57,777 bases of DNA, from the NCBI GenBank assembly GCA_002683405.1, contig NYTH01000036.1, forward strand, positions 1-57,777, written 5' to 3'. The notes beneath the pieces were generated by a model that saw only the letters and a list, made by a program, of their open reading frames with translations, ran no database searches and was not told the origin of the DNA. The DNA is from Salinisphaeraceae bacterium (GTDB taxonomy: Bacteria > Pseudomonadota > Gammaproteobacteria > Nevskiales > Salinisphaeraceae). Of the stretch, positions 6,994 to 30,794 are shown piece by piece. A program made the position numbers and the translations under genes. Each line of letters begins with the position of its first letter. Position 1 is the first letter of the stretch.

Positions 6994-6998
6994 GATGC

Positions 6999-9253: not shown

Positions 9254-10731
9254 CAAACCAACTCCCGAATCTTCGCCAGTATCGACTCACTTTCCTTATC
9301 CAGCGCAATGATCTCGGCAATGATGTCCTTGGGCTCACGCAGCGGCGCTTCTTCCTTCGCATTCGGGTTCTTCACCGACAAATCCCAGGTGGCCTTGTCC
9401 AGATCAGCCACGTTCAGCGACCAGGATTTCTCCGAATCGGCAAAGTCTTGCTGCAGCCGCACGAACTCCTTCAGATCGTCATCATTCAGCGGATTGGTCT
9501 TGCCCAGGCTGCGGCCCGGATCAAGCTGATAGAACCAGACCTTCTGCGTCGGCTCGCCCTTGACGAAGAACAGCACCACGGTTTTCACCCCGGCGCCGAG
9601 GAAGGTCTTGGCCGGGCAGTCCAGCACGCTGTGCAGATTGTGGTTTTCCAGCAATTCCTTGCGCAGGGCGACGGCGGCGTTGTCGGTATTGCTGAGGAAG
9701 GTGTTCTTGATGACCACGGCGGCGCGGCCACCGGGTTTGAGCATTTTCATGAAGTGCTGCAGGAACAGGAATGCGGTTTCGCCGGTCTTGATAGGGAAGT
9801 TCTGCTGCACTTCCTTGCGTTCCTTGCCGCCAAAGGGCGGGTTGGCCAGGATGATGTCGTGCTGCTGGCTGGGCTGAATGTCCTGCAGGTTCTCCGCCAG
9901 CGTGTTGGTGTGGATCACGTTGGGTGCTTCGATGCCATGCAGAATCATGTTCATGATGGCGATGACGTAGGCCAGCGATTTCTTTTCCTTGGCGTGGAAG
10001 GTGGCTTCCTGCAGGGTTTTGAGGTCTTGCGTGGAGAGCTGTTTTTTTTCGCCGCGGCCCTCGCGGCCCGGATGGCGAAGATAGTCGAAGGCCTCGCACA
10101 GGAAGCCCGCCGAGCCGGCTGCCCCATCGTAAATGGTTTCGCCGATTTGCGGCTGCAACACGTTAATCATGGCGCGGATCAGCGGGCGCGGGGTGTAGTA
10201 CTCGCCGCCGTTGCGCCCGGCGTTGCCCATGTTCTTGATCTTGGTTTCGTACAGGTGGCTGAGTTCGTGCTTTTCCTCCTGCGAGCGGAAGCGCAGTTCG
10301 TCCACCTTCTCCAGCGCATCGCGCAGGGAATAGCCACTCTGTAGCTTGTTCTTGATCTCGCCGAAGATCTCGCCGATCTTGTATTCGATGGTGTCGGGGC
10401 CGGTGGCGGACTGCTTGAAGCTTTTCAGGTAGGGGAACAGCTCGCTGTCCACGTAGTCGATCAGGTCGGAGCCGGTGAGTGCGTTGTTGTGATCGAACTC
10501 ACCGTTTGCATCCTTGGGCGCGGCCCAGCGGCTCCAGCGGTGTTCGGCGTCAATAATGGGCTGGTAGTCCTCGCCCATGAGTTCGGCTTCCAGCGCCCGC
10601 TCCGCCTCAAAATCATCCAGATATTTGAGGAACAGCATCCAGCTTGTCTGCTCGGTGTAGTCCAGCTCGCTGGAGCAGCCGGCGTCCTTGTGCAGGATGT
10701 CGTCGATATTCTTGAAGGCTTGTTCAAACAT
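9253..10731 (-). CDS. hsdM: Type I restriction-modification DNA methyltransferase (N6-adenine) subunit
   Basis: 492-residue modification subunit. It has the helical HsdM N domain (residues 1-140, YTEQTSWMLFLKYLDDFEAE), the YYTPRPLIRAMINVL entry to the catalytic domain (about residue 180), the SAM-binding motif DGAAGSAGF (about 203) and the catalytic motif NPPFGG (about 298), which indicates N6-adenine methylation. It is first in the four-gene minus-strand operon, so hsdS, rhuM-fic and hsdR depend on its promoter, expected between 10732 and about 10990. The start is ATG at 10731; the upstream Shine-Dalgarno is weak. No defects seen. Confidence 0.94.
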   Translation of the reverse strand: MFEQAFKNIDDILHKDAGCSSELDYTEQTSWMLFLKYLDDFEAERALEAELMGEDYQPIIDAEHRWSRWAAPKDANGEFDHNNALTGSDLIDYVDSELFPYLKSFKQSATGPDTIEYKIGEIFGEIKNKLQSGYSLRDALEKVDELRFRSQEEKHELSHLYETKIKNMGNAGRNGGEYYTPRPLIRAMINVLQPQIGETIYDGAAGSAGFLCEAFDYLRHPGREGRGEKKQLSTQDLKTLQEATFHAKEKKSLAYVIAIMNMILHGIEAPNVIHTNTLAENLQDIQPSQQHDIILANPPFGGKERKEVQQNFPIKTGETAFLFLQHFMKMLKPGGRAAVVIKNTFLSNTDNAAVALRKELLENHNLHSVLDCPAKTFLGAGVKTVVLFFVKGEPTQKVWFYQLDPGRSLGKTNPLNDDDLKEFVRLQQDFADSEKSWSLNVADLDKATWDLSVKNPNAKEEAPLREPKDIIAEIIALDKESESILAKIRELV

Positions 10732-12904: not shown

Positions 12905-13294
12905 TTATCGTTTGATGCGGCGTGGCTGGAGCGTTACGTTCCCATTAAATATCCGACTTCCTACTCTCGCACTTGTAGGCAATTCAAATAACGGCTGTTC
13001 TAAAGAACCACTGTGACCGTAGAACTCAGTCGCACCTTTCCAGTGCTCGGGATAGTCCAGATAGGTGGCCATGACGCGGTGGTAGTGGTTGGGTAGCGCC
13101 GACAGGGTTTCGACGAACTCGACCAGGGCGTTGAGGTCGGCCTGCAACTGCCATTCCGCCTCATCGATTATGGTCCGGAAACCCTTCTCGCAGCTCAGCT
13201 CGAAGATTTCCAGGAGTTCCGCGTCCATCGGCTTTAGCAGTCTTGCCGGAATCTCCTTGGGCGATACGGGACATTGCAGTACATTTGTAGCCAT
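12905..13294 (-). CDS. hypothetical protein, possibly 3'-altered
   Basis: 129-residue soluble protein starting MATNVLQCPVSPKEIPARL. The region to about residue 100 is helical and acidic (DAELLEIFELSCEKGF, LVEFVETLSALPNHYHRVMATYL). The last 25 or so residues look compositionally different (RVGSRIFNGNVTLQPRRIKR), as if the original end had been replaced. No family recognised. It is divergent from the ribbon-helix-helix frame, whose only visible start codon overlaps this gene's first codons, suggesting a rearrangement at about 13290-13330. Confidence 0.5.
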   Translation of the reverse strand: MATNVLQCPVSPKEIPARLLKPMDAELLEIFELSCEKGFRTIIDEAEWQLQADLNALVEFVETLSALPNHYHRVMATYLDYPEHWKGATEFYGHSGSLEQPLFELPTSARVGSRIFNGNVTLQPRRIKR

Positions 13295-13504
13295 CCTGCG
13301 AAGGACTCCGATGGCCACCACCTAGCCCGCGACCGGACCTTCCGAATTGATCCCGTCGTTAAGGAGGCGCTACGAACCGCTGCCGCCCGCCAACACCGCT
13401 CCATTGCCAATATGGTGGAGGTGCTGATTCGGGATTATTGCGGGCGCAATGGCATCACGATCGCGGAGCAGGGCGACCTGCTCAGCGGAAAAAACAAAGA
13501 CTGA
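13274..13504 (+). CDS. ribbon-helix-helix (Arc/MetJ-type) DNA-binding protein
   Basis: The segment from about residue 23 (RTFRIDPVVKEALRTAAARQ, then SIANMVEVLIRDYCGRNGI) fits the ribbon-helix-helix fold used by small repressors and antitoxins. The only available starts are a TTG at 13274 or non-standard codons, and residues 1-20 do not look like part of the fold, so the 5' end may be damaged or mis-set. It ends 29 nt before the helicase gene on the same strand and is the natural candidate for a repressor of the defence cluster, by analogy with other RHH genes placed in front of toxin or RM genes. That role is inference. Confidence 0.6.
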   Translation: MQYICSHPAKDSDGHHLARDRTFRIDPVVKEALRTAAARQHRSIANMVEVLIRDYCGRNGITIAEQGDLLSGKNKD

Positions 13505-13533
13505 ACCGGGACGACCGGCGTGACGGGGCTGCG

Positions 13534-16500
13534 ATGAAACTGATCGACAACATCAATGAGCTTCTCGGGGACGATCTGCGTCGCAGCATCACGCCCGGCG
13601 CAAAGCTCAAGATCGCGGCGTCCTGTTTCTCCATCTACGCCTTCGCGGAGCTGAAGGAGCAGTTTGAATCCGTCGAATCCCTGGAATTCATTTTCACCTC
13701 ACCGACTTTTGTCCCCGACGAGGCGATCAAGGACAGCGGCCGCAAGGTCCGCCGCGAGTTCCATATTCCGAAAGCCGAGCGGGAGCGGAGCTTCTACGGC
13801 AGCGAGTTCGAGATACAGCTGAAGAACAAGCTGACGCAACGGGCCATCGCCAGGGAGTGTGCTGACTGGATGCGGCGCAAGGCCGTTTTCCGCTCCAATC
13901 GCAGCAAAGCGCCGATGCAGCAGTTTGCTTGCGTCGATACGGGGCAATCAAAAGCCGTCTACCAGCCCCTTCATGGCTTCACCGCCGTCGATCTGGGCTA
14001 TCAGCAGGGCGACGCGGTCTCGAATTTCGTCAACCGGTTTGACGATCCGGCCTATACAGCCAATTTTCTGCAATTGTTCGACCAGATCTGGAACGATCCC
14101 GAAAAGATCGAGGATGTATCCGAGCGGCTTTGCGACCACATCGCCTCCGTGTATCAGGAAAATTCACCCGAGCGCATCTACTTCCTGATGCTCTACAACA
14201 TCTTCAACGAATTTCTGGAAGACATCAGCGAGGACGTCCTGCCCAATGACCGCACCGGCTATCAGGACAGCCTGATCTGGAACAAGCTCTATAGCTTCCA
14301 GCGGGACGGGGCTACGGGGATCATCAACAAGCTGGAAACCTACAATGGCTGCATTCTGGCCGACAGTGTGGGCCTCGGTAAAACGTTCACGGCGCTGGCT
14401 GTCATCAAGTACTACGAGCTGCGCAATCGTTCCGTGCTGGTGCTCTGCCCCAAGAAGCTGGCGGACAACTGGCTGAACTACAACCGGAACCTCACCACCA
14501 ATCCGTTGGCGAAGGATCGCTTCAACTACGAGGTGCTCTGCCACACCGACCTTCAGCGTACCAGCGGCGAGTCCTTCGGCACCCGCCTGGATCGGGTGAA
14601 CTGGGGCAATTACGACCTGGTGGTGATCGACGAATCACATAACTTCCGCAACAACGACGTCTTCAAGGACCGGGAAACCCGCTACCAGAAGTTGATGAAC
14701 AAGGTGATTCGCGAGGGGGTTAAGACGAAGGTCCTGATGCTCTCCGCAACGCCGGTCAACAACCGGTTCACTGATCTGCGCAATCAGCTCGCGTTGGCCT
14801 ATGAAGGCGAATCCGATGCACTCAGCGCCAAGCTGAGGACGGAGACCGACATCGAGGAAATCTTCCGCCGCGCCCAGACCGCCTTCAACGCCTGGTCCCG
14901 TTTGCCGCCGGATGAGCGTACGTCGGACGCCATTCTGGACGCGCTGGACTTTGACTTCTTCGAGTTGCTGGACAGCGTCACCATCGCCCGCTCCAGAAAG
15001 CACATCGAGCAGTTCTACGACACCACGGAAATCGGCACCTTCCCGGAGCGGCGCAAACCGCTGGCCTTCCACCCGCCATTGACCCAGCGCAGCGACGTGA
15101 TCGGGTTCAACGACATCTACGCTCAGCTCTCCACGGTCAAGCTCGCGGTCTATGCCCCGGTGAATTACATCCTGCCCAGTCGGCTGCCCAAGTACGAGGC
15201 GCTCTACGATACCGAAGTCTCCAGCGGCGGGGGGCGACTGAAGCAGGCCGACCGGGAGCGCAGTCTTCAGGCGCTGATGACGACTAATCTGCTCAAGCGC
15301 CTGGAAAGCTCGGTAGAAGCCTTCCGCATCACCCTGCAAAAGCTCCAGGACAACCACACCCGCACCTTGGAGAAAATCGCCACCTACAGGAAAACCGGCC
15401 GCGACCCCGGGTTCGCGGATGTCACAGCTGGCTTTGAGGACGCGGAACCGGAGGAGGAAGAGTTCCTGGCCGCAGACGATGAATCCATCGGCGGCAAGGT
15501 ACGCATAAGCCTAGCCGACATGGATCTGCCGTCCTGGGAACGGGACCTTGAGGCGGATTTGAACATCATCGCGGCATTGCTGGCCGAGATGGAAAAAGTC
15601 ACCCCTGAGGACGACACCAAGCTGCAACACATCAAGGCGCACATCAACGACAAGATCGCCGCGCCCATCAACGCTGGCAACAAAAAGGTCATCGTCTTCA
15701 CCGCCTTCGCGGATACCGCGCATTACCTGTACCGCAATCTGGTGCCCGGCGTTCTCGAAGCGCACGGCCTCCATAGCGCCATGGTCACCGGCTCCGATGC
15801 GCCCAAATCAACGCTGGGAAAGGGTTACGACTTTCAATCCTTGCTGACACTGTTCGCGCCGAAGGCCAAGGACAAACACCACGTGCTGCCGGACGAGCCC
15901 AACGACATCGACCTGCTGATCGCCACCGACTGCATTTCCGAAGGGCAGAACCTTCAGGACTGCGACTACCTGATCAACTACGACATCCACTGGAACCCGG
16001 TGCGCATCATCCAGCGCTTCGGGCGGATTGACCGCATTGGCTCTCCCAACGCCAGCATTCAGCTGGTCAATTACTGGCCCGACATCAGCCTGGATGAGTA
16101 CATCAACCTCAAGGAGCGGGTCGAAAATCGCATGGTCATCGTCGATGCGACCGCCACCGGCGACGACAACCTGCTGGATGCCGAAGCCAGTGAAATCGCC
16201 TATCGCAAGGAGCAGCTCCGCCGCCTACAGGAAGAGGTGATCGACATGGAAGACGTCAAGACCGGCGTTTCCATCACCGACTTGGGGCTGAACGACTTCC
16301 GCATGGATTTGCTCAACTACATCAAGACGCACGGCGAGCTGGCCAACCTGCCCAGCGGCCTACACGCCGTGGTCCCGGCGGACAGCGACCGTGGCCTGAT
16401 GCCGGGGGTGATCTTCACCCTGCGCAACCGCAACCATGCGGTCAACATCCAGCAGCAGAACCGCCTGCACCCGTTCTATCTGGTCTATATCGCAAACGAC

Positions 16501-16812
16501 GGCGAGATTATCGCCAACCATACTGAAGTTAAACCGCTGCTGGACCTCGCCCGCGCTGCATGCCGGGGACGGACCGAACCCATCCAGGCGGTCTGCCAGC
16601 CTTTCAATCAGGCCACCGACGACGGGCGCCATATGGGCTTCTATTCCGACCTGCTGGACCAGGCCATCTGCAGCATCGTTCAGGTACAGGACGAGAAGGA
16701 TCTGGACAGCCTGTTCACCGGTTCACGCACCAGCGCACTGACCAACCCCATTGCCGGGCTGGATGACTTTGAGCTGTTGTCCTTCGTGGTGGTGCAGGAA
16801 CAACAACGATGA
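13534..16812 (+). CDS. SNF2-type (superfamily 2) helicase of the defence cluster
   Basis: 1092-residue ATPase. Residues 1-230 resemble the phospholipase-D-like N domain found in related helicases (IAASCFSIYAFAELKEQ near the start, LTQRAIARECADWMRRK), but I see no HKD catalytic motif, so it may bind rather than cut. The SNF2 motor follows: ADSVGLGKTFTALAV (Walker A, about 274), VVIDESHNFRN (motif II, about 364), LSATPVNN (about 402), and IIQRFGRIDRIGS (motif VI, about 825). The C-terminal 250 residues are unassigned. Start ATG 13534; the frame continues upstream but without a better start. It leads a run of tightly spaced plus-strand genes including DUF4391, Mod and Res and probably supplies DNA or RNA translocation to that system. 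Confidence 0.88.
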   Translation: MKLIDNINELLGDDLRRSITPGAKLKIAASCFSIYAFAELKEQFESVESLEFIFTSPTFVPDEAIKDSGRKVRREFHIPKAERERSFYGSEFEIQLKNKLTQRAIARECADWMRRKAVFRSNRSKAPMQQFACVDTGQSKAVYQPLHGFTAVDLGYQQGDAVSNFVNRFDDPAYTANFLQLFDQIWNDPEKIEDVSERLCDHIASVYQENSPERIYFLMLYNIFNEFLEDISEDVLPNDRTGYQDSLIWNKLYSFQRDGATGIINKLETYNGCILADSVGLGKTFTALAVIKYYELRNRSVLVLCPKKLADNWLNYNRNLTTNPLAKDRFNYEVLCHTDLQRTSGESFGTRLDRVNWGNYDLVVIDESHNFRNNDVFKDRETRYQKLMNKVIREGVKTKVLMLSATPVNNRFTDLRNQLALAYEGESDALSAKLRTETDIEEIFRRAQTAFNAWSRLPPDERTSDAILDALDFDFFELLDSVTIARSRKHIEQFYDTTEIGTFPERRKPLAFHPPLTQRSDVIGFNDIYAQLSTVKLAVYAPVNYILPSRLPKYEALYDTEVSSGGGRLKQADRERSLQALMTTNLLKRLESSVEAFRITLQKLQDNHTRTLEKIATYRKTGRDPGFADVTAGFEDAEPEEEEFLAADDESIGGKVRISLADMDLPSWERDLEADLNIIAALLAEMEKVTPEDDTKLQHIKAHINDKIAAPINAGNKKVIVFTAFADTAHYLYRNLVPGVLEAHGLHSAMVTGSDAPKSTLGKGYDFQSLLTLFAPKAKDKHHVLPDEPNDIDLLIATDCISEGQNLQDCDYLINYDIHWNPVRIIQRFGRIDRIGSPNASIQLVNYWPDISLDEYINLKERVENRMVIVDATATGDDNLLDAEASEIAYRKEQLRRLQEEVIDMEDVKTGVSITDLGLNDFRMDLLNYIKTHGELANLPSGLHAVVPADSDRGLMPGVIFTLRNRNHAVNIQQQNRLHPFYLVYIANDGEIIANHTEVKPLLDLARAACRGRTEPIQAVCQPFNQATDDGRHMGFYSDLLDQAICSIVQVQDEKDLDSLFTGSRTSALTNPIAGLDDFELLSFVVVQEQQR

Positions 16813-16846
16813 ATTACCGAGAGAGCAAAGCGTACAGGGAGCACGT

Positions 16847-18688
16847 ATGACGACCTTTGACAGCACCAAGGCCTCGCTGAACGACCTGCTGCGGGAGATA
16901 CGCGAAGGCAAGATTCAGCTGCCGGATTTTCAGCGGGCTTGGGTCTGGGACGATGATCATATTCGGGACCTGCTGGTCAGTATTGCCCGATCTTTTCCCA
17001 TTGGCGCCGTCATGCTGCTGGAAGCTGGCGGCGAAGTGAGGTTTGAAACGCGACCGGTGGAAGGTCTGGAAGGGAACATCCCGAAGGATCAAAAGCCGGA
17101 GAAACTGATTCTCGACGGCCAGCAACGACTGACCACGCTCACCCAGGCGCTGGCGCTGGAGGCGCCTGTCAACACCACCACGGCCAAGGGCAAGAAGATC
17201 AAGCGCCACTATTACTTTGATATCCGCAAGGCAGTGGAGATGCCTCATGCGCTGGACGAGGCGGTGATCGCTGTCGATGAAAACCGCCAAGTGCGCAGTA
17301 ATTTCGGCCGCGATGTGGATCTGGATCTGTCCACTCGCGAGCTGGAATGTAAGCAGCTTTATTTTCCCTGTAACCAGGTCATGGGCTCGGATGACTGGGA
17401 AGCAACGCTCCACCAGGTTGCCCCGGAGCACTTCGGCACCTACATGATCTTCCGCAGCCAGGTGCTTTCGCCGTTTCGCAGTTACCAGTTGCCGGTGATC
17501 CTGCTGAAGAAAGAGACCTCCAAAGAGGCCGTTTGCCTAGTATTTGAAAAAGTAAATACCGGCGGTGTCCAGCTATCCGTTTTTGAACTCATTACGGCCA
17601 GCTATGCGGCTGATGGCTATAACCTGCGTGATGACTGGTTCGGTTCGAAGGTGCGCAATGTCGAATCGCGCAAGGCACGCATAGAACAGGACGACCTGCT
17701 CAAGGGCACCGAAGCAACCGAATTTCTCCAGGCCATCAGCCTGCTGAACACCCATGAACAGCGCCAGGCGGACATCGCCTCTGGAAAAACGGGCAAGCAG
17801 GTTCGCCCGGTTAGCGCCAAACGCGCAGATGTTCTCCAACTGCCGCTATCGGCCTGGCAACAATGGGCTGACGATCTGGAGGCCGGGTTCAAGCTGGTCG
17901 GCCGGTTTCTGCGCAAAGAATGCTTCTATAGTCGGCGCGAGCTTCCTTACAGCACACAACTGGTGCCCTTGGCCGCTGTGTTGGCGCGTCTTGGGGACCG
18001 CTGGCTTGAGCCGCGCATCTACGACAAGCTGGCGCGCTGGTACTGGTGCGGCGTACTGGGCGAGCTCTACGGCGGCGCGGTCGAAACCCGTATGGCTAAT
18101 GACTTCGAAGAGCTACTGCGTTGGTTCGAAGAAGACCTCGCCCTACCAAGGACCGTGCGCGATGCCAGTTTCCAGCCGGATCGCTTCGACACGCTGCGCT
18201 CCCGCCTCAGTGCCGCCTACAAGGGCATCAATATTCTGGTGCTTCGCGAAGGCTCGAAGGACTGGTTCTGGAAGGCCACCATCCGTGAGCTGGACGCCAG
18301 CGAGATTGCCCTGGATATCCACCATATATTCCCGCGCAACTGGTGCGAGAATCAGGGCATCTCCAAGGATGAATACGACAGCATCCTCAATAAGACACCT
18401 ATTTCCTACAAAGCCAACCGCAAGATCGGCGGCGATGCACCGTCCCAATATCTGCCGAGGATTCAGCAGGAAAAGTATGTGGGTCTGAGCGACGACGAGA
18501 TGGACGCCTTGTTGGTCAGCCACGCTGTGGCCCCGGAATTACTCCGTACCGATGAGTTTACGCAGTTTATCGAAGATCGCCGAAGCCGCCTGGCCGCACT
18601 CATCGAAAAAGCTATGGGCAAGCAGGTCAGCCAGGCTTTCGAAAAGGAAGAGTACGACACCGAAGCCTTGGAGCAATTCACCGAATGA
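16847..18688 (+). CDS. DUF262 domain nuclease with C-terminal HNH (GmrSD-like)
   Basis: 613-residue protein. The N-terminal DUF262 domain has LPDFQRAWVWDDDHIRDLL and the signature DGQQRLTTL (about residue 90), which in GmrSD-type Type IV enzymes supports nucleotide-dependent action. The C-terminal portion has DIHHIFPRNWC followed by an NxxP/ANRKIGG segment (about 485-530), an HNH/DUF1524-like nuclease site. Proteins of this type restrict modified phage DNA or act as general nucleases. ATG 16847 with AGGGAG upstream is preferred over frame extensions into the helicase gene. Its end overlaps the DUF4391 start (ATGA at 18685), indicating translational coupling. Confidence 0.87.
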   Translation: MTTFDSTKASLNDLLREIREGKIQLPDFQRAWVWDDDHIRDLLVSIARSFPIGAVMLLEAGGEVRFETRPVEGLEGNIPKDQKPEKLILDGQQRLTTLTQALALEAPVNTTTAKGKKIKRHYYFDIRKAVEMPHALDEAVIAVDENRQVRSNFGRDVDLDLSTRELECKQLYFPCNQVMGSDDWEATLHQVAPEHFGTYMIFRSQVLSPFRSYQLPVILLKKETSKEAVCLVFEKVNTGGVQLSVFELITASYAADGYNLRDDWFGSKVRNVESRKARIEQDDLLKGTEATEFLQAISLLNTHEQRQADIASGKTGKQVRPVSAKRADVLQLPLSAWQQWADDLEAGFKLVGRFLRKECFYSRRELPYSTQLVPLAAVLARLGDRWLEPRIYDKLARWYWCGVLGELYGGAVETRMANDFEELLRWFEEDLALPRTVRDASFQPDRFDTLRSRLSAAYKGINILVLREGSKDWFWKATIRELDASEIALDIHHIFPRNWCENQGISKDEYDSILNKTPISYKANRKIGGDAPSQYLPRIQQEKYVGLSDDEMDALLVSHAVAPELLRTDEFTQFIEDRRSRLAALIEKAMGKQVSQAFEKEEYDTEALEQFTE

Positions 18689-19425
18689 CCGAAGCGGGCC
18701 ATCCCGCGTTAATTGACTACCCGGAGCGCGCCAGGGTGGGCCGGGTGGTGCCCAAGAATCGCATTATGGTGGCCGGTGCGCCCGGTCGACGCGTGCGCGA
18801 TCAGCTCACCGCTCAGGTGGCGCGAATCACCTGGCAGTACAAGCTGGCGCCGGAGACCCTGAACCTGAAGGGCAGCAAGGCGGTGCCGGAGGTTCAGATA
18901 TTCCGTGTGGCGCTGAAGCCAGCCGGGTTGAGCGATGACTTGCCGGTTGAGGTATTGAAGTGCATCGACCGCGCCATCGGCTTTCCGCTGATCTTCGAGC
19001 TGATCAGTAGCCGCGAAGACGGCGCGCGGCGTGATGCCATTCGGGTAGCGGCCACCTACAAGCGGCCCAGCGAGGCCGATGCCAGCAAATGGGTGATCGA
19101 CGACTACTTCGCCACCGACTGGCTACCAGCGGACACACCCCGGGCACCGCTGCCGGTGGCGCTGGGTTTGCCCCGGCTTTATGAGCAGCTCTTGCGCGAG
19201 CTGCTCCCCATCAAGGCTCGGCCAGGTGAGTCCATGGCGGCGCTGGTGGAGCGCCACGGCCGCATCACGGCAAAGCTACGCGAGTGCCGGCGGCTGAAAG
19301 CCCGCATTCAACGGGAAAAACAATTCAACCGCAAGGTCGAGATCAACCGCCAGCTACAAGCGCTAATGGCGGAACTCGATACCTTGCGAGAAACAACGAT
19401 TGAAGGAAGCAAGCAACATGGCTGA
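18685..19425 (+). CDS. DUF4391 family protein
   Basis: 246 residues. The core from about residue 20 to 170 follows the DUF4391 pattern: VPKNRIMV, VARITWQYKLAPETLNL, VPEVQIFRVALK, and the terminal KWVIDDYFATDWLP. The last 60 residues are strongly charged and likely coiled coil (LRECRRLKARIQREKQFNRKVEINR). Function unknown; members are usually found next to Mod- and Res-like or SNF2 genes, as here, so a structural or bridging role in that complex is plausible. It overlaps both neighbours: ATGA with the DUF262 gene and 8 nt with mod. Confidence 0.85.
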   Translation: MTEAGHPALIDYPERARVGRVVPKNRIMVAGAPGRRVRDQLTAQVARITWQYKLAPETLNLKGSKAVPEVQIFRVALKPAGLSDDLPVEVLKCIDRAIGFPLIFELISSREDGARRDAIRVAATYKRPSEADASKWVIDDYFATDWLPADTPRAPLPVALGLPRLYEQLLRELLPIKARPGESMAALVERHGRITAKLRECRRLKARIQREKQFNRKVEINRQLQALMAELDTLRETTIEGSKQHG

Positions 19426-21415
19426 AGAACCGACCCTCGACAAGTTGAAAATGCACAGCCCAGACCTGAGCCAGGACAACATCGCCAAGATTCGGGAGCT
19501 GTTTCCTAGCTGCGTGACCGAGGCGCGTGATGAGGCGACCGGCAAGCTGCGTCTGGCGGTGGATTTTGATCAGCTGCGGCAGGAGCTTGATGACCATATC
19601 ATTGAAGGCTCGCCTGAGCGTTTCAAGATGGATTGGCCGGGAAAGAAAGAAGCGGCTGTTAACGCACACCAGCCTCTGCCAAAGACTCTTCGACCTTCGA
19701 TTGAAGACAGCTCAAGCTTTGAAGTCACTCGGAACTTATTCATCGAAGGAGACAACCTTGAAGCGCTAAAGCTGCTGCAGGAAACCTATCTTGCATCAGT
19801 CAGGATGATATACATTGATCCTCCATACAATACCGGGAATGATTTCATCTATGATGACTACTTTTTCGAAGGTGCAGAGGAATACCTTGAGAAGTCAGGC
19901 CAAATTGATGGATCGGGAGACAGGTTAATCGCTAACCCTGAGGCCAGGGGAAGGTTTCATTCTGACTGGCTTTCTATGATGTATTCTCGGCTTAGGCTAG
20001 CCCGGAATGTTTTACGCGAAGATGGTGTCATCTTCATATCTATTGGCGATGACGAGCAGGCAAATCTAAAAAAACTATGTGACGAAGTATTTGGCGCTAG
20101 CTGCTTTCTCGGTTGTGCGTGCAGGGTCTCTAAGAAAGCAAACAATCAGGGGGATTATTGGTCTCCTAACTTTGATTACATTCTGACGTATGCTAACGAT
20201 AAGGCTTCGTGCCCTGTATTCTTTGGGGGCATAAATCATAGCGCTTATGATCAAGTTGAAACCGAAGGGCCTCGCAAGGGAGAAAGGTATCAGTTAGTTC
20301 GGTTGTACATGACAAGCCTTGATCCGATGCGCGGATGCAGCAACCAACGATACTATATCGAAGCGCCGGATGGCACGCTGTTAATCCCACCAGGGAATGT
20401 ATTTCCGGAACTTAAGGCTGACGGCTCTAAAATAGCTCCACAGACTGGCGAAGACAAAGTCTGGCGGTGGAGCGCAGAAGCGTACGCCAAGAGGCGAGAT
20501 GAAATAGTTGTAAAGCGGGTTCGGTCCTCAAACTTAACAGATCCAGACGGCAACAAGGTGCTTTGGAATGTCTACACAAAGACATATCTCAATGATGTGA
20601 TCAAAAAGTCATCAGCAAAGCCGAACAGCCTCATTGAAGACCATATCAATCAAAACAGCTCCCATGAATTGAAGCGTCTTGGCGTGCCTTTTTCTTTCGC
20701 AAAACCATCGTCACTAATCGAATATTTGTGCGAGATTTCTCGCATCTCTAGCGATGATATAGTCATGGACTTTTTCGCTGGATCAGCCTCATCTGCTCAC
20801 GGCGTCATGCGATATAACAAGACGAATGGAACATCTTGCCGCTTTATCATGGTGCAACTTGATGAAGAACTTGATGAAAACGACCGTAACCAACAAGCTG
20901 GGTACATTTTCTGTCAAAAACACAAGATGGTACCCGTTATCCCATCGTTGTCGAAGGAAAGGATACGACGCGCAGGCCAAGAACTAGTAGCTAAGGATTG
21001 GCAGGGCGACGTCGGCTTCCGCGTGCTGAGGGTCGACAGCTCAAACATGAAAGACGTCTACTACCGCCCGGACGATCTGAAGCAGTCCGATCTGCTCGAC
21101 ATGGTCGACAACGTGAAGGAGGACCGCACCGCCGAGGACCTGCTGTTCCAGGTGCTGGTCGATTGGGGCGTCGACTTGACCCTACCCATCCGCCGCGAAA
21201 CCGTGCAGGGCAAGACCGTATTCTTCGTCGATGACAACGCCCTGGTCGCTTGCTTCGACAAGGGCATCACGGAAGAGCTGGTCAAAGAGCTGGCCGGCCA
21301 CGAGCCCCTGCGCGTCGTCTTCCGCGACAACGGCTTTGTCTCGGACGCGGTGAAGATTAATGTCGAGCAGGTCTTCCGGCAGCTTTCGCCGACCACCGAA
21401 GTGAAGTCGATCTGA
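19418..21415 (+). CDS. Type III-like DNA methyltransferase (Mod)
   Basis: 665-residue beta-class amino-methyltransferase. The catalytic motif [10 protein letters not shown] lies at about residue 133 and the SAM motif [14 protein letters not shown] at about 450, the order expected of Type III Mod proteins. The region between them is the target-recognition domain. ATG 19418 (overlapping the DUF4391 stop) is favoured over TTG 19400. From roughly 19640 to 20990 the sequence becomes clearly more AT-rich and uses A/T-ending codons, then returns sharply to GC-rich sequence, as if the catalytic/TRD core had been imported. Mod provides site recognition and self-protection for Res, which follows 19 nt later. 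Recognition site unknown. Confidence 0.92.
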
Positions 21416-21434
21416 GGGCGGCGAGGGGATAGTT

Positions 21435-24400
21435 ATGAAACTCAAGTTCAAGGTCCAGCCCTACCAGACCAACGCCGTCAACGACGTGGTGGAATGTTTT
21501 GCCGGTCAGCCCATGACGTTGGGGCTGAGCTACCGCATCGACCCGGGCCGCACAGCGCAGGCGAGCGCCTTCGAGGAAGGGTTCAAGAATGCCGACTTTG
21601 CGCTGTCCGAGGCGCAAATTCTGGAGAACATCCAGAAAGTCCAGCGGCGGCAGAATCTACCGGTATCGTCGTCATTGACCGACTTCACGACCTTCAACAA
21701 AAAGGGCGAGCGAGTGGCGGCGTCAGCGGCCTACAAGAAGGACGCGCTGGCCGCCACCCGCATTCACCTCGATGTGGAGATGGAAACCGGCACGGGCAAG
21801 ACCTACTGCTATATCAAGTCCATTTTCGAGATGAACAAGCGCTACGGCTGGTCGAAGTTCATCATCATCGTGCCCTCGATTGCCATTCGCGAAGGGGTGT
21901 ACAAGTCTTTCCAGGTGACCGCCGAGCACTTCACCGAGAGCTACGGCAAGAAGGCGCGGTTCATCATCTACAACTCCAAGCGCCTGCACGAGGTGGAGAG
22001 CTTCTCCTCGGACGCCGGTATCAACGTGATGATCATGAACATCCAGGCGTTCAATGCGCGCGGCAAGGACAACCGCCGGATCTACGACGAGCTGGACGAT
22101 TTCCAGTCGCGCAAGCCCATTGATGTGATCGCCTCCAACCGCCCGATTCTCATTCTGGATGAGCCCCAGAAAATGGAGGGTAGGGCCACCATGGAGGCCT
22201 TGCCCAAATTCAAGCCGCTGTTCATCCTGCGCTACTCGGCCACGCACCGAACCCAGCATAACCGCGTGCACCGCCTGGATGCGCTGGATGCCTACAATCA
22301 GAAACTGGTGAAGAAGATCGCCGTTCGGGGCGTTCAAACCCGTGGACTGGCCGGGACCAATGCGTACCTTTACCTGGAAGGCATCGACATCTCCAAACAG
22401 GCTCCCGTGGCCCGTGTCGAGCTGGAAGTGAAGCTGAAGTCGGGCGAGATCAAGCGGCAGCTGCGCCGACTGGAATTCCGTGATGACCTGTTCGTCGAAT
22501 CGGGCGAGCTGGACCAGTACCGGGGATTCACCATCAGCCAGATCGATGCAGTCAACGATACGGTGGAGTTCACCAACGGCGTGGTATTGAAGGCCGGTGA
22601 GGCCAGTGGCGATGTGACCGAGCGCGACATTCGGCGCATCCAGATTCGCGAAACCATCAAGGCGCACCTGGACAAGGAGAAGCAGCTCTTCGCCCAGGGC
22701 ATCAAGGTGCTGTCCCTGTTCTTTATCGACGAGGTGGCAAAGTACCGCGACTACGATCAAGCCGATGAGAAAGGCGAGTACGCGCGGGTGTTCGAGGAGG
22801 AGTACGCGCTGCTCCGGGACGAGTACCTGTCGGAATTGGCGATCGACAACGAAGCCTATCGGAAGCACCTGGCGGATATCGAACCGGGCAGAACCCACAA
22901 CGGTTATTTCTCGATCGACAAGAAGACTAACCGGCTAAAGGACCCCGCGGTCGGCGCCCGCTCGGTCGATTCCGATGATGTGGACGCCTACGACCTGATC
23001 CTCAAGGACAAGGAACGCTTGCTGGACTTTGCCGAGCCGACCCGGTTCATCTTCTCCCATTCCGCGTTGCGCGAGGGCTGGGACAACCCGAACGTGTTTG
23101 TCATGTGCATGCTCAAGCACAGCGACAACACCATTGCCCGCCGCCAGGAAGTCGGCCGGGGCCTGCGCCTGAGCGTCGATCAGCACGGGGACCGTATGGA
23201 TCATCCGGCCGTTGTGCACGACATCAATGTGCTGACGGTGGTGGCGAGCGAAAGCTACAAGGACTTCGTGGCGGGCCTGCAGAAGGAGATTTCGGAAACT
23301 CTGTCGTCCCGGCCGCGTCAGGCCACTGAAGCCTATTTCACCGGGAAGCTGCTCGCCACCGAAGACGGGCCAATCGAAGTCACCGCCGCCATGGCGAAGC
23401 AGATATACCGCTATTTGGTGAAGCACGATTACACCGACGATGCCGATCAGATCGCCGACGCCTACCACGATGCAAAGTCCGCCGCCACCCTCGCCGAGTT
23501 GCCCGAAGAGCTGAAGCCCTATGCCGACCAGGTATTTCAGCTGATCGACAGCGTCTTCAGCGACGCCCAGCTGCCGCAGGTGGATGACGGCCGCAAGCCC
23601 AAGACCAACCCACTCAATGCGAATTTTGAGAAGAAGGAATTCCAGGCGCTTTGGACGCGTATCAATCGCAAGGCCGTATATCGAGTGGAGTTCGATTCGG
23701 CGGAGCTGATCAGAAAATGTGTGAGCGCGCTGGACAGGGAGCTGCGTGTCACGCCGTTGCAGTACACCGTTCAGGCCGGGCTTCAGCAGGATGGCCTGAC
23801 CGATGAGCAGCTTCGCGGCGGTGACGGCTTTGCTGTTCAGGAAACCACGACCGAATACGGCGATTCCATCCATTCGCGAGTGAAGTACGACCTCGTCGGC
23901 AAGGCGGCGGAAAACGCCCGGCTTACCCGAGACACCACAGCGGCGATATTCAGCCAGGTGCAAACGGCCGTCTTCGAGCAGTTCCGGAAGAATCCGGAGC
24001 ATTTCATTGCCGAAGCCTCTCGCCTGATTGCCGAGCAGAAAGCGGCCATGGTCATCGAGTGTCTGGCGTACAACGAGGTGGATGATCATTACGACACCGA
24101 CATCTTCACCGCCAACCAGACCGGTCAGGACTTCTCCCGCGCGACGGAAAAACTCAGGAACCACGTCTACGATTACGCGATCATCGACTCTGATGTGGAG
24201 CGGAAATTCGTCAAAGAGCTGGACACAAGCAGCGAGGTGGTTATCTACGCCAAGCTGCCCCGCGGCTTCCTGATTCCGACCCCCGTTGGCGACTACAACC
24301 CGGACTGGGCGATTTCCTTCAAGGCCGGCAGCGTCCGGCACATCTACTTCGTAGCGGAAACCAAGGGCACGATGTCGTCGATGAAACTGCGCGAGATTGA

Positions 24401-24536
24401 GAAAACGAAGATCGAGTGCGCCCGGAAGTTTTTCGATGAAATCAGTCAGCGGATCACCGAGGATCGCGTGAAGTATGACGTGGTTACGGACTACGCAAAG
24501 CTAATGGATGTGGTTGGGCGGGCCGCCAACGCATGA
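21435..24536 (+). CDS. Type III-like restriction subunit (Res)
   Basis: 1033-residue helicase-nuclease. Motifs: [15 protein letters not shown] (Walker A, about residue 114), [11 protein letters not shown] (motif II, about 242), FILRYSATH (motif III), [11 protein letters not shown] (about 548) and [14 protein letters not shown] (motif VI, about 568). The C-terminal nuclease site is PDWAISF with AETKG (about 955 and 974), a PD-(D/E)xK arrangement. Together with Mod it should form a Type III-type complex that cuts unmethylated DNA after communication between sites. ATG 21435 follows GAGGGGAT. No frameshift seen. The match to Res is clear; cooperation with the helicase, DUF262 and DUF4391 proteins is inferred from gene order. 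Confidence 0.93.
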
Positions 24537-24672
24537 ACGGGGGAGTGTCTTCGCGGCGGAACGCGTGCTTCGAACCGGCGTGTTGGACGATTGTGGTTTG
24601 ATTAGCAGCGCGTCGGGGATAGTTTCGCCGGTCTTGTTCTTCAGGGTTGAAAAGGGCTGAGGTGGCCGCGGA

Positions 24673-25680
24673 ATGTCTCGGGAGGAATTCGCCAAGCCCT
24701 GGAAAAGCTACGAGGAGCAACTGGACCTGCTGATTTCGCGTGGGTTGGTCGTTACGGATCGCTCCAGGGCGCTGGATTATTTGCAGCGAATTGGCTACTA
24801 CCGGCTCAGTGGCTACTGGTATCCCTTTCGGGAGCGATCCGGACCTTTCATGCATTTGGATCAACAGGGCCGGAAGCCAGCCAAGAAGCAGCAGAAGGTC
24901 GTGACCCTCGCCCTGGACGAGTTTCGGTCGGGCGCGCGTTTTGAAGACGCCGTCAAACTCTATGTCTTCGACAAGAAGCTACGGCTTCTGGCCATGGATG
25001 CGCTGGAGCGGATCGAGATTGCTCTGAGGGTTGATATTTCCCACACCCTTGGCGAGATCGATCCTGTTGCTTACCTGCGCCCGGAGCTGTTCCATGACAG
25101 TTTCAGCCGGGACCTGAATAACGGCAAAGGCGTGACCCGGCATCACGAGTGGCTTGGCAGGCATGCTCGCCTGATCAATGAATCCAAGGAAGAATTCGTT
25201 CGCCACAACAAGACCAAGTACGGTTTGCCGCTGATTATCTGGGTCGCATGCGAGGTTTGGGACTTCGGCACGATGTCGCGTCTCTACGCCGGAATGCGGG
25301 AGCAGGAGCAGGATGCGATCTCGGCAAAGTACGGCGTCCATAATGGCCGCACGTTCGCAACCTGGTTGCGAAGCCTGAACTACCTGCGCAATGTTTGTGC
25401 GCACCACAGCCGGCTGTGGAACCGGAATATCGTGGATCAGCCGAAACTGCCGTCGATGGGGGAGGTCGCTTGGGTGGGGCCGTTCGAGGATGATTCCCAC
25501 CTTCGCGCCCGATGCTACCTGCTGCTGCGCATCGCACGGCATCTGCTACAGGTGGTGAACCCGAGTTCGAGCTGGCCTGAGCGCGTGAAGGCGCACCTGC
25601 AGACCTTTCCCGATCTGGATCACCTGAGCTTGAACCTGACGGGGATGGGCGCTCCTGATGGCTGGGAGAAGGATTGGTAG
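24673..25680 (+). CDS. Abi_2 family (AbiD/AbiF-like) abortive infection protein with HEPN motif
   Basis: 335 residues. The N-terminal segment SYEEQLDLLISRGL and YLQRIGYYRLSGYWYPFR are Abi_2 landmarks. Near residue 235 the motif RNVCAHHSRLWNR gives the RNxxxH signature of HEPN ribonucleases, so cell-toxic RNA cleavage after phage sensing is the likely activity. It starts 136 nt after res, on the same strand, and could be read through or have its own promoter in 24537-24672. Placement directly behind an RM system suggests a second line of defence if restriction fails; that is inference. The full-length family core appears intact. Confidence 0.88.
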   Translation: MSREEFAKPWKSYEEQLDLLISRGLVVTDRSRALDYLQRIGYYRLSGYWYPFRERSGPFMHLDQQGRKPAKKQQKVVTLALDEFRSGARFEDAVKLYVFDKKLRLLAMDALERIEIALRVDISHTLGEIDPVAYLRPELFHDSFSRDLNNGKGVTRHHEWLGRHARLINESKEEFVRHNKTKYGLPLIIWVACEVWDFGTMSRLYAGMREQEQDAISAKYGVHNGRTFATWLRSLNYLRNVCAHHSRLWNRNIVDQPKLPSMGEVAWVGPFEDDSHLRARCYLLLRIARHLLQVVNPSSSWPERVKAHLQTFPDLDHLSLNLTGMGAPDGWEKDW

Positions 25681-25956
25681 CTTCGGCAGCCAATAAAAAA
25701 CCCCTTAGCAGTCTCCCCGCCGGAGCGGTTCAACCGAAAGGGGCCGTGTTATGCAAAATCGTATGTCTAAAAAGTCTGAAAATCAAGTTCGGTATCTTCT
25801 TGCAAAGTAAACGGGTTTGGAATTAACGCAATATTGCCGACCAGCAGAAAGTCACCCCCGTTGTCACGTACGGTTTCTGCTCAGTATCGGTGGGACTACC
25901 TCGGCTTGTATTGGACAATCTCGGCTTCTAACGCAATGAAAGCGGGGAGCTGATCA

Positions 25957-26646
25957 ATGACTAATACCTCAGAATCCACTGAATATATTCCGTACCCACG
26001 AGCAATGGCGCGGCTGAAAGACAGGCTGGGGGCGACGCCAGCCGAGTTGGCGGCCTGGGTCACGTTCGGCGCGGCGCAGGGGTGTGGTGGGCTCACGGCC
26101 TACAAGCAGGCCAGCATTTCGGTGAGCCCATCCGTTCTCGACTTCGATTACATGGACATAGGCGGTTTCGATTATCTACGGCCGCTAATGGGCGCCTGGT
26201 TTCTCGCCAAAGATGTCGATGAATTCGAGCCGCAGGATCGGTTTATCGAGTATCCACGACTTTTAGAGCACTGGTCCGACAGCGAGTGGCTGGAGGATGT
26301 GGAGGCATATGTTGAAGCCTGTGTACACGAGGACCGGCTGCACGAGATTCACCCTGTGAGCGGCCGGAGCCAATTGAGTGAGCCGGACTTCGAATACGAG
26401 AGGCCGCCCAGGGAAACGACGTTGTTGTTCGTGGAAGATGTGAAAGATATTGAAAGGGCTGACGGGCTTGGCGTGGTTATTGCCGAAACGGCGGCCGGGC
26501 GGAAACAACGAATCGAGGAGATGCTGAGAGAAGAGATGAAAGCGCGAGGTACATATGGCGCACAAGCGCGCTTGGCAAGAATTCTAGATATCAAAGAGCC
26601 GACCCTCTCCGGCATTTTGAAAAGGGAGCCGAAATTCAAACCATGA
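25957..26646 (+). CDS. hypothetical protein with possible C-terminal helix-turn-helix
   Basis: 229-residue acidic protein without a recognised family. The segment at about 195-225 (QARLARILDIKEPTLSGILKR) reads as a helix-turn-helix of the Cro/C1 or XRE kind. The middle is rich in aspartate and glutamate. It sits between the defence cluster and alpA and upstream of a repeat-rich control region, so a regulator of element maintenance or excision is plausible. ATG 25957 is preceded by AAAGCGGGGAG, a good ribosome-binding site. Confidence 0.6.
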   Translation: MTNTSESTEYIPYPRAMARLKDRLGATPAELAAWVTFGAAQGCGGLTAYKQASISVSPSVLDFDYMDIGGFDYLRPLMGAWFLAKDVDEFEPQDRFIEYPRLLEHWSDSEWLEDVEAYVEACVHEDRLHEIHPVSGRSQLSEPDFEYERPPRETTLLFVEDVKDIERADGLGVVIAETAAGRKQRIEEMLREEMKARGTYGAQARLARILDIKEPTLSGILKREPKFKP

Positions 26647-26667
26647 AGGCAGTGCTGCTTCGTCTGC

Positions 26668-26783
26668 TCCTAAGCTTGCTCCTAAGTCTACTTCGGCGAG
26701 AAGCGATGTATGCAAAAATATTAACCAAAAACAATTAGTTAAAAATATTCGAATCTTAGGATTGACCTTAGGAGGTCCTAAGG
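26668..26783. promoter_or_regulatory. repeat-rich control region upstream of alpA
   Basis: TCCTAAG occurs at 26668-26674 and 26680-26686 (12 bp apart), its inverse CTTAGGA at 26755-26761 and 26767-26773 (12 bp apart), and again TCCTAAG at 26776-26782, the last two forming a palindrome with 8-bp arms (26766-26783). Between the pairs lies a very AT-rich tract (26711-26750). A T-run (CTTTTTC) follows the palindrome, so it could also act as a terminator. Operator of AlpA or the HTH protein, or an iteron-type origin, are the main readings. Confidence 0.55.
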
Positions 26784-26835
26784 CTTTTTCATAGTGAACA
26801 TTCCAACAAGCGCCGATGCGCATCAGGAGTGTTCC

Positions 26836-27497: not shown

Positions 27498-27509
27498 GAG
27501 AGTTTGAAC

Positions 27510-28619
27510 ATGCGGAAACACCATCCCGAGAATGAAAGGATAAAGCGTAAGTACTTCGTGTTCCTGCAAGAGGCGAAGCGGCAGAGCGAATCGTCCGTGG
27601 ATCAGGTAGCGAAAGCCATTAGCCGTTTCGAGGTTTTCACCAAGTGGAAAAGCTTCAAGGCGTTCCATTTCGAGCAGGCGGTTGCGTTCAAGGCGTATCT
27701 GGCTCGTCAGCCGAACGAAGCTACTGGCCGGCCGCTGAGCAAGGCCACGCTGAACTCGACGGTACGGGCATTGAAAACCTTCTTCCAGTGGCTGGCCATG
27801 CAGCCGGGGTACAAGTCGAAAGTCAGTTATACGGATGCCGAGTATTTCAACCTGTCCGAAAAAGATGCACGGATTGCTTCGGCGAAGCGCCTCCGGCCGG
27901 TGCCCACACTGGAGCAGGTCAAACATGTTCTTGGGCGGATGCCGGCGGACACTGTGGTTCAGCGCAGAGATCAGGCGGTGTTGGCTTTCATACTCCTGAG
28001 CGGTGTGCGGGACAGCGCGGCGTCTTCCTTGAAGCTAAAGCATGTGGACGTGGAAGCGGGCTATGTTTTTCAGGACGCCCGCGAGGTGAACACCAAGGCT
28101 AGCAAGACTATTGCCAGCTACTTCTTTCCTGTAGGCGATGAAGTGGTCCGCATCGTGCGCGAGTGGGTTCATTATCTGCGGCAAGTGATGATGTTTGGCA
28201 ATGATGATCCCCTTTTCCCGAAGACGCAGGTGGCACTCGGAGAACGGCAGGTCTTTGAGGCGGTTGGCATCAGTAGGGAGCATTGGAGCAATGCCACGCC
28301 GATTCGCCGCATCTTCAGGAACGCATTCGAGACTGCTGGCCTCGACTATTACAACCCTCACAGCATCCGTAATACCTTGGCGCAGCTTGGAGAAACTGTG
28401 TGCAGGACACCTGAGGAGTTCAAGGCCTGGAGCCAAAACCTGGGCCATGACAGCGTGAGGGTCACGTTCGATAGCTATGGCGAGGTGCAGCCTCGGCGTC
28501 AGGCTGAAATTCTTTCGACACTGGGAGAGGCCAATGGTGTTCGTGACGAAACGGACTGGGAGAAACTGGGAGTGGCCATAGCCCGCGAGTTACACAAGCA
28601 ACGGAGGAAAGCGAGCTAG
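27510..28619 (+). CDS. tyrosine recombinase / site-specific integrase (internal)
   Basis: 369-residue phage-type integrase. The N-terminal SAM-like core-binding domain covers about 10-100; the catalytic domain shows SGVRDSAASSLKLKHVD (arginine I), HSIRNTLAQLG (HxxR) and LGHDSVRVTFDSYG (second His and the Tyr nucleophile near residue 325). ATG 27510 follows AGGAG (27496-27500); TTG 27504 is an alternative. It is co-directional with alpA and the HTH gene. Unlike the second integrase of this island it is not next to an att site, so it may be a relic of an inner element or serve excision or dimer resolution. Confidence 0.9.
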   Translation: MRKHHPENERIKRKYFVFLQEAKRQSESSVDQVAKAISRFEVFTKWKSFKAFHFEQAVAFKAYLARQPNEATGRPLSKATLNSTVRALKTFFQWLAMQPGYKSKVSYTDAEYFNLSEKDARIASAKRLRPVPTLEQVKHVLGRMPADTVVQRRDQAVLAFILLSGVRDSAASSLKLKHVDVEAGYVFQDAREVNTKASKTIASYFFPVGDEVVRIVREWVHYLRQVMMFGNDDPLFPKTQVALGERQVFEAVGISREHWSNATPIRRIFRNAFETAGLDYYNPHSIRNTLAQLGETVCRTPEEFKAWSQNLGHDSVRVTFDSYGEVQPRRQAEILSTLGEANGVRDETDWEKLGVAIARELHKQRRKAS

Positions 28620-29028
28620 AGTCGAGGATTCTAATAACTTCGATTGTGCTTCTTGCTTATCGAAGTGAAGCTTGTTTGAGTACCGTCCTGGTCGAAGTCA
28701 ATGAGCGTGCCCTCGTTAGTTGACCGCACCCACGGATTGCCATAGCTTCGTGCATGAGCCCGACGGACTCTGGAGGCCCAACTTCAATTTATTGATGCGG
28801 CCCCGGCCTACGGCGTCCGGCTCTCCTAAAATGAGTGATCAGCATGGGGTGCCCGGATATATTTCCTTTCGGCCCCAACTTCCAGTCCTGTTCTGCTTTA
28901 CGCGCCTCCGAAATTTATTCCAACTAGCACAGGCCTTGCCGCACTGAGCAAGCCATGCATCCGCTGGCCTCACTGAACGAAATTTTCTGCCAAGGAAGAG
29001 CGTCACATTCCATTCGAGTAGCAAAGGA
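28620..29028. other. intergenic stretch between the two convergent recombinase genes
   Basis: About 410 nt. I find no credible gene, tRNA or strong terminator; a 75-codon open frame at 28720-28947 lacks any domain and a convincing start. It lies between two converging recombinases, so a weak bidirectional termination region is expected. Confidence 0.4.
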
Positions 29029-30273: not shown

Positions 30274-30274
30274 T

Positions 30275-30327
30275 TTAGTAGTACCGATGCGCGATTTTCG
30301 TAACGGTACTACTAAGCGCACTACTAA
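30275..30327. repeat. ACTACTAA repeats at the integrase promoter
   Basis: A perfect 12-bp inverted repeat (30275-30286 and 30304-30315) just upstream of the integrase start, plus a further direct copy of ACTACTAA at 30320-30327, 12 bp after the one at 30308. Likely integrase arm sites or an operator for self-repression. Confidence 0.6.
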
Positions 30328-30370
30328 CGCTACTGGATCATGCTGGATCGGGATGGACGCTATGGGCAAT

Positions 30371-30404
30371 AAAAAAGCCCGTAATAACGTGAAATTACGG
30401 GCTT
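30371..30404 (-). terminator. Rho-independent terminator serving ssrA on the island side
   Basis: An 11-bp perfect stem (AAGCCCGTAAT at 30375-30385 with ATTACGGGCTT at 30394-30404), an 8-nt loop, and a plus-strand A-run that becomes U-rich on the minus strand. It ends minus-strand transcripts leaving ssrA before they enter the integrase gene. Confidence 0.85.
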
Positions 30405-30439
30405 ATCAGGTCTTTTTCGGATGTTATAAAACGACTTGA

Positions 30440-30462
30440 TGGTGGAGGCGGCGGGAGTCGAA
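30440..30462. repeat. att copy within the 3' end of ssrA (right end of the island)
   Basis: Last 23 nt of the tmRNA gene, identical to 11066-11088. The T-loop/acceptor region of tRNA-like genes is the usual crossover target of P4-type integrases, and the gene stays intact because the island supplies an identical end. Confidence 0.88.
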
Positions 30463-30794
30463 CCCGCGTCCGCAGAACCTCCGCCCTTGGATCTACATGC
30501 TTATTACGTCTTTGATTGTCGGCGAACGCTACCCGACGAAAAGGGAAAACGTTCGCTTAGCCTTGAAGGTTTAACCAATCAGCCCAAGACGTGCCGATTG
30601 GCGGTTCCATGAGTTATGACACCCGTGACCAGAAGCATGGACACTTGCCGGGCGGGCGCTAGCGGGTTTTAGGCCGCCAGTGCGTAGTTGTCGTCGTTGG
30701 CAACTATCAAAGTTACAACCTGTTTAACGAGGGTGATTGCAACCTCGGCATGCACCTCGGGTTTCGCGATCTGCGTCGAAGCCAAAACGCCCCC
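30440..30794 (-). ncRNA. ssrA: transfer-messenger RNA (tmRNA)
   Basis: 355 nt on the minus strand. The 5' end GGGGGCG (30788-30794) pairs with the 3' acceptor CGCCTCC before ACCA (end at 30440). The conserved CGAAACCCGAGGTGCATGCC segment follows the 5' end. The tag frame runs from GCC at 30701 to TAA at 30669 and encodes ANDDNYALAA, a typical proteobacterial proteolysis tag. The tRNA-like T arm is GCGGGTTCGACTCCCGC. tmRNA rescues stalled ribosomes with SmpB, encoded just upstream. Its 3' end is the island's attachment site. Confidence 0.96.

Follow-up and report, generated by a model that had tools for sequence, protein, structure and literature searches.

Does the run of seven same-strand genes in the Salinisphaeraceae DNA encode a single defence machine, or a smaller conserved system in which other genes have found a place? 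In the window, by which we mean the whole 57,777-nt stretch analysed, all seven ORFs lie on the plus strand at the coordinates assigned by the initial annotation, with their starts taken from the sequence (Table 1). The starts read in this way reproduce exactly the spacings that had been given for the seven genes, and the domain names proposed for them are backed by both Pfam and PADLOC, the RHH and HNH calls being weak. The whole is best explained, with a probability of about 0.55, as a type III restriction-modification (R-M) operon (Mod-Res) joined by a module of a SNF2 motor and a DUF4391 protein, and carrying exchangeable defence passengers.

Table 1. The seven genes of the locus, with window coordinates
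Feature	Position	Strand	Assignment and spacing
RHH-like small protein	13274-13504	+	TTG start; RHH_5 match under the Pfam cut-off
SNF2-family core helicase	13534-16812	+	SNF2-rel_dom, Helicase_C
GmrSD-like DUF262 protein, passenger between helicase and DUF4391	16847-18688	+	PF03235/GmrSD_N
DUF4391 core protein	18685-19425	+	PF14335; ATGA overlap with DUF262 gene
Mod, type III DNA methyltransferase, exchangeable centre	19418-21415	+	N6_N4_Mtase, MTase_III; 8-nt overlap with DUF4391
Res, restriction subunit of the type III pair (SF2 helicase with PD-ExK nuclease)	21435-24536	+	19 nt after Mod
Abi_2/AbiD HEPN protein, possible passenger	24673-25680	+	PF07751; 136 nt behind Res

Four of these genes, in the order helicase, DUF4391, Mod and Res, make up a core; 117 of the 142 loci with DUF4391 have it complete, ordered and all on the same strand. 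These loci were gathered via DUF4391, and the recurrence of the order is therefore conditional on this family. The sources were plasmids (44 records), viral contigs (21), the best 80 of 476 genome-contig relatives of DUF4391 from a search of 84,980 species, and further genomes; altogether 154 loci were annotated, some of them fetched because their genome was without DUF4391. In an earlier set of 133 loci, 24 were incomplete, nearly all of them ended by the end of a contig, an exception being L059, where DUF4391 stands with neither Mod nor Res across 9.6 kb downstream. The core order is fixed across phyla with ATGA-type overlaps, the helicase and DUF4391 genes mostly overlapping by 4 nt, and it is at exactly this junction that the DUF262 gene of the window is inserted. 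None of the 590 matched ORFs was a core gene fusion. For the counts out of 96 given below, 21 loci redundant at helicase identity above 97% were set aside from the 117, among them L122 (with Abi_2) and L168 (with DUF262), leaving 96 non-redundant loci. Alignment A1 was made without L002-L010, L012-L014, L022-L026, L031 and L033, and in alignment A2, 13 of the 51 first-listed locus rows were excluded for stops in the translation. Cassettes were present in 10 of 5,426 E. coli genomes, which makes the system open to study in laboratory strains.

Some departures from the usual arrangement were also observed. Two Mod genes precede a single Res in L163 and L218. A phage record from Firmicutes (L238, Erysipelothrix phage phi1605) has a helicase, a gene for 237 amino acids, Mod and Res in one run, the 237-aa gene being a DUF4391 candidate by size alone. 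In L230 the order reads Mod, an ORF6N gene, Res, helicase and DUF4391; judged by gene order, the helicase-DUF4391 pair is here relocated as a unit.

Among 398 genomes of the phylum, DUF4391 occurred in 23 and Res in 43, and both were found together in 22 where 2.5 would be expected, yet 21 of the 43 Res genomes were without DUF4391. With DUF4391 nearly always accompanied by Res, and Res in about half of its genomes without DUF4391, the helicase-DUF4391 pair has the look of an accessory that was joined to a type III R-M system. Where the Res shares 58% identity or more with that of the window, 11 of 13 genomes have DUF4391; where it is more distant, 11 of 30 do. In addition, Mod-Res stands without the pair in L212, L214, L217 and L219, in two of which Mod and Res are separated by a Fic gene, and the pair is thus not needed for Mod-Res to persist; L216 and L218 begin too close to a contig end for its absence to be judged. 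A further Mod-Res locus without DUF4391, L220, has a different and shorter SNF2 helicase gene ahead of Mod and overlapping it by 4 nt, perhaps an independent recruitment. We found no published role for DUF4391, the family being named in one paper of the 5.39 million covered, in a table without function, and no description of a helicase-DUF4391-Mod-Res system in the literature searched, which takes in a minority of subscription papers. An orphan family that is tied to one setting, the type III Res, gains in this way a role that can be tested.

A second line of evidence comes from the way in which the core proteins diverge. Over 75 loci, the pairwise identities of the helicase correlated with those of Res at 0.975, of DUF4391 at 0.944 and of Mod at 0.761, and none of 999 label shuffles attained any of the three values. 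When helicases above 60% identity were taken alone, the Spearman coefficients against the helicase were 0.81 for Res, 0.83 for DUF4391 and 0.35 for Mod. In the 23 pairs whose helicases are at least 97% alike (two identical pairs included, with members recurring between pairs), Res had a median identity of 95.9% and DUF4391 one of 91.7%, that of Mod being 58.9%. The loss of identity in Mod is concentrated in its centre, where residues 241-440 show 15-31% identity per 20-residue block over 66 close pairs, with flanks at 85-95% (residues 21-140) and 80-88% (residues 541-671). The same can be seen in DNA of E. coli plasmid cassettes, L236 and L035 being 97% identical on either side of a 567-bp gap within Mod; L237 has a similar gap, preceded by a less similar stretch. 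At the level of sequence, helicase, DUF4391 and Res diverge jointly, and Mod has its central part exchanged. Transfer of the genes together could by itself account for this shared divergence, the comparison having covered genes of the core. The mean column identity of the helicase was 73% (36 loci), and much higher values were found between different bacteria: 97-98% for L081, L112 and L122, whose sulfate-reducing and syntrophic hosts are Desulfofustis, Nitratidesulfovibrio and a Syntrophaceae MAG, and 96.9% for L117 and L124, one from a Stenotrophomonas and the other from a contig assigned to a Myxococcota bin. Such near-identity points to recent transfer.

The surroundings of the locus are those of a defence island. 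GC content is 0.51-0.60 over about 7-31 kb of the window and 0.62-0.70 rightwards, and the right edge of the island is marked by a tmRNA gene with an adjoining integrase. The stretch 27504-30794 holds two integrase genes and the tmRNA (30440-30794), which the integrase gene at 29029-30369 adjoins. A second copy of the tmRNA end, with up to 2 mismatches allowed, was found neither in the window nor in the genome, and the repeats detected in 13000-26800, two direct families and two inverted pairs, were all imperfect. The same island carries on the minus strand (4522-10731) a type I R-M operon, hsdM-hsdS-(RhuM/Fic gene, 6999-8003)-hsdR, which repeats the habit of placing a toxin-like gene within an R-M operon. 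Given this setting, the seven genes might be regarded as an ordinary part of the island, a plain type III R-M with the helicase pair, DUF262 and Abi_2 as neighbours without joint function. The occurrence of Mod-Res alone, the optional nature of DUF262 and Abi_2, and the type I R-M and integrases nearby are in favour of this, and it is the alternative that survives best. However, a core order fixed across phyla with ATGA-type overlaps, the presence of Res in 22 of the 23 DUF4391 genomes and the joint divergence of helicase, DUF4391 and Res all speak against it, and we hold it to be unlikely. The same evidence (117 of 142 loci, 22 of 23 genomes and joint divergence) upholds the former proposal that the helicase and DUF4391 belong with Mod-Res.

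The motifs and models of the core proteins bear on what the add-on pair could do. The helicase contains GLGKT, DESH and QRFGRIDR, and was matched by SNF2-rel_dom (E 6e-12) and Helicase_C (7e-13). Matches of Mod to N6_N4_Mtase (1e-23) and of Res to ResIII (1e-13) and RE_endonuc (5e-34) were obtained with Pfam, and PADLOC called them MTase_III (1e-196) and REase_III (1113 bits). DPPY, an adenine-type motif, is present in all 125 Mod proteins of at least 600 aa, that of the window included, with 69 of the 125 matched by our motif I regex. The Res of the window has GTGKT and PD..ETK, and GxGKT and PD..E[TV]K were found in 108 of 108 and 106 of 108 Res proteins, respectively. DUF4391 is firmly assigned (PF14335, E 3e-50, 171.8 bits versus a cut-off of 29.9), and its model (pLDDT 88, pTM 0.82) shows an alpha/beta domain with a helical hairpin. 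Fold searches with this model yielded nothing clear enough to assign a fold, with a best Foldseek E of 0.1 and a best VIA Z of 7.2, the latter to the helical hairpin only, and no PDB sequence matched DUF4391 at E up to 1. Upstream of the core, the small protein matches RHH_5 with E 3e-4 and 20.8 bits, under the Pfam cut-off of 26 bits. Relatives of it stand immediately before the helicase in L091, L099, L140 and L151, and WYL genes take this slot in 7 of 96 loci; the RHH-like protein is a probable regulator of the operon.

The helicase also raises the alternative that it forms with DUF4391 an independent ATP-dependent restriction enzyme of the SauUSI kind, which travels with Mod-Res. A PADLOC family that it matches, C3a139, is named HKD+Snf2 (420 bits over residues 200-1120 of the longer helicase ORF), and with VIA the model aligned to SauUSI (7clg_B) from residue 1 (Z 14.2, 437 residues aligned, rmsd 25.9), this model being a poor one whose pLDDT of 64 is too low for domain claims. 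The first 235 residues had no meaningful Pfam match; judged by a motif scan, the N-terminus may be a degenerate PLD domain. Against such an enzyme, HxKx4D occurs anywhere in just 5 of 126 helicases and in that of the window only at residue 699, the Pfam result contains no SRA-type domain, and DUF4391 almost never stands without Res; we consider this alternative improbable. As nuclease and ATPase motifs are kept in the core and the HKD motif is missing, cutting is placed in Res and the passengers, and the helicase-DUF4391 pair is most likely a motor partner of Res, with the passengers serving as backup weapons.

At least one gene is inserted within the core in 53 of the 96 non-redundant loci, nearly always beside Mod: 25 loci have one between DUF4391 and Mod, 38 between Mod and Res, and a single locus, that of the window, between helicase and DUF4391. 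Thirty passenger proteins (representatives together with the DUF262 and Abi_2 cases) were scanned with Pfam, and several had no match. The families found were OLD-type AAA with TOPRIM, UvrD-like, SIR2, HerA, AAA_13, AAA with subtilase, Schlafen AlbA_2, RhuM, Fic, YhcG, BRO-N, ORF6N, PLD, AAA_21, DUF3800, Abi_2 and GmrSD, SIR2-HerA being among the passenger types inside the core. When 110 loci were placed on a helicase tree built with FastTree, a minimum of 31 changes was counted for the presence of internal cargo, of 7 for DUF262 and of 50 for the cargo signature. Loci with helicases 97-98% alike may differ in cargo, L081 having none and L122 Abi_2, while L149 has a UvrD-like gene and L152 two genes of OLD/DUF2130 type (626 + 469 aa). 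Seen in gene content and phylogeny, passengers are repeatedly gained or lost, mostly on either side of Mod. Because the filled slots flank Mod and the centre of Mod is exchanged too, these changes are most simply explained by recombination between the conserved flanks, events that would swap the middle, passenger-Mod-passenger. Cores 97-99% alike with different passengers and Mod centres are natural experiments, and they bear on whether an R-M core controls the toxins embedded in it, a question asked since PrrC.

The two passengers of the window differ in how often they recur. The DUF262 protein is matched by PF03235/GmrSD_N (E 7e-32, 111.7 bits versus a cut-off of 33.2) and carries DGQQR and HHIFP; all 10 family members have DGQQR and four of them HHx[FY]P, while the match of its HNH half to GmrSD_C (E 0.1) is below the Pfam cut-off. 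Of the 96 non-redundant loci, 8 (9 of all 117) have a DUF262 gene within the core or next to it, at five positions: before the helicase (L030), between helicase and DUF4391 (the window alone, 1 of 117 full loci), between DUF4391 and Mod (L062), between Mod and Res (L229), and after Res (L072, L100, L109 and L161). In L028, L029 and L128 the gene lies 415 nt behind Res, outside our 150-nt rule for passengers. In 37 genomes other than that of the window, each positive for DUF4391 or the helicase, 3 of 32 DUF262 copies lay in the cassette versus 0.14 expected (P 0.0004, with rounded genome sizes, 15 kb assumed per cassette and island clustering uncontrolled). Recurring above expectation yet absent from most loci, DUF262 is, on the evidence of its distribution, a recurrent optional passenger. 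When the surroundings of four plasmid relatives were inspected, one, a 57% relative of the DUF262 protein in the window, was found behind drmC of a DISARM operon; it lies on a Nostoc plasmid (L231, 7193-9842), 7 nt after drmC.

The Abi_2 protein is matched by PF07751 (E 3e-54, 184.6 bits versus a cut-off of 25.6) and has the RxxxxH of HEPN proteins as RNVCAH. It occurs in 2 of 117 full loci, the window and L122, where it lies inside the core, and outside the window 0 of 12 copies in the 37 genomes fell within the cassette, some cassettes stopping at contig ends; its status as a cassette passenger is uncertain. In genome G108, matches to DUF262 and Abi_2 lie less than 1 kb apart on one strand (contig C3, about 1184662-1186565), far from the DUF4391 locus of that genome, so that DUF262 and Abi_2 may also form a pair where no core is near.

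The recurrence of both genes with the core, which had been set as a test by the initial annotation, is accordingly borne out for DUF262 (3 of 32 versus 0.14 expected) and barely for Abi_2, by L122 alone. That all seven products form one complex or a fixed layered programme is very unlikely. One gene run with overlaps and the enrichment of DUF262 in the cassette speak for it; against it, only 8 of the 96 loci have DUF262, which takes five positions in them, Abi_2 is limited to 2 of 117, cores that are nearly identical differ in their passengers or have none, and a DUF262 relative is located in DISARM. The larger complex raised by the initial annotation, with seven fixed parts, finds no support, DUF262 being variable in position and absent from 88 of 96 loci. 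It had also been argued that the DUF262 nuclease would have to co-evolve with the methylation pattern of Mod; this is not required, as Mod carries the adenine-type motif DPPY, whereas the known GmrSD enzymes attack modified cytosines (PMC12707154).

How such a locus might work can be proposed from the above. Mod would mark self DNA and recognise the site, and Res would cut invading DNA that is left unmarked. On the side of restriction, the helicase-DUF4391 pair may be a partner that uses ATP to translocate DNA and in this way loads or drives Res or clears bound proteins, and both the degenerate N-terminus of the helicase and the hairpin of DUF4391 could be binding surfaces rather than nucleases. 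The passengers would be second lines against phages that escape Res, DUF262 by targeting modified DNA and Abi_2 by RNA shutdown. Perhaps the pair does even more, and is an ATP-driven chassis that docks on Mod-Res, detects when this enzyme fails or is inhibited, and then gates the toxin or nuclease in the slots beside Mod, effectors and specificity being swapped as a cassette and the chassis staying nearly constant across phyla. We put this forward as speculation, with the odds well against it.

Finally, parts of the locus resemble several known systems. The SNF2 helicase distantly resembles DrmD of DISARM, but scores 151.6 versus a DrmD cut-off of 610 bits and has only weak DrmA-like helicase matches in PADLOC; DrmA, DrmB and DrmC were not the best match of any of the eight proteins of the run in Pfam or PADLOC. 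The helicase differs from SauUSI by being without the N-terminal HKD nuclease motif. Like the locus described here, BREX and the DUF499-centred BREX-related systems combine a conserved core with varied auxiliary effectors (OLD, Schlafen, HEPN), and Type-2 BR has an HKD-Swi2/Snf2 helicase (PMC12839542). Type III Mod-Res is found here instead, and DUF499 and DUF3780 are absent from the Pfam matches of the eight scanned proteins of the run. Toxin genes within R-M operons are known from PrrC, embedded in EcoprrI (PMC12707154), and HEPN, RhuM and Doc genes as well as Abi2/AbiD are listed as embedded in R-M operons (PMC3710099); in our case the host is a type III core with an extra motor. Other restriction loci that hold or adjoin a GmrSD-type enzyme have been reported, with TgvAB inside the type I R-M of V. 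cholerae VPI-2 (PMC11411939) and BrxU beside BREX (PMC12707154), whereas here one predicted DUF262 nuclease sits inside a type III core and separates the helicase from DUF4391. The closest likeness in components is to type III R-M of the EcoP15I kind, with adjacent Mod and Res, a methyltransferase, an SF2 helicase with PD-ExK and a variable recognition centre in Mod; what sets this locus apart is the conserved pair of SNF2 helicase and DUF4391, together with slots for passengers before and after Mod.
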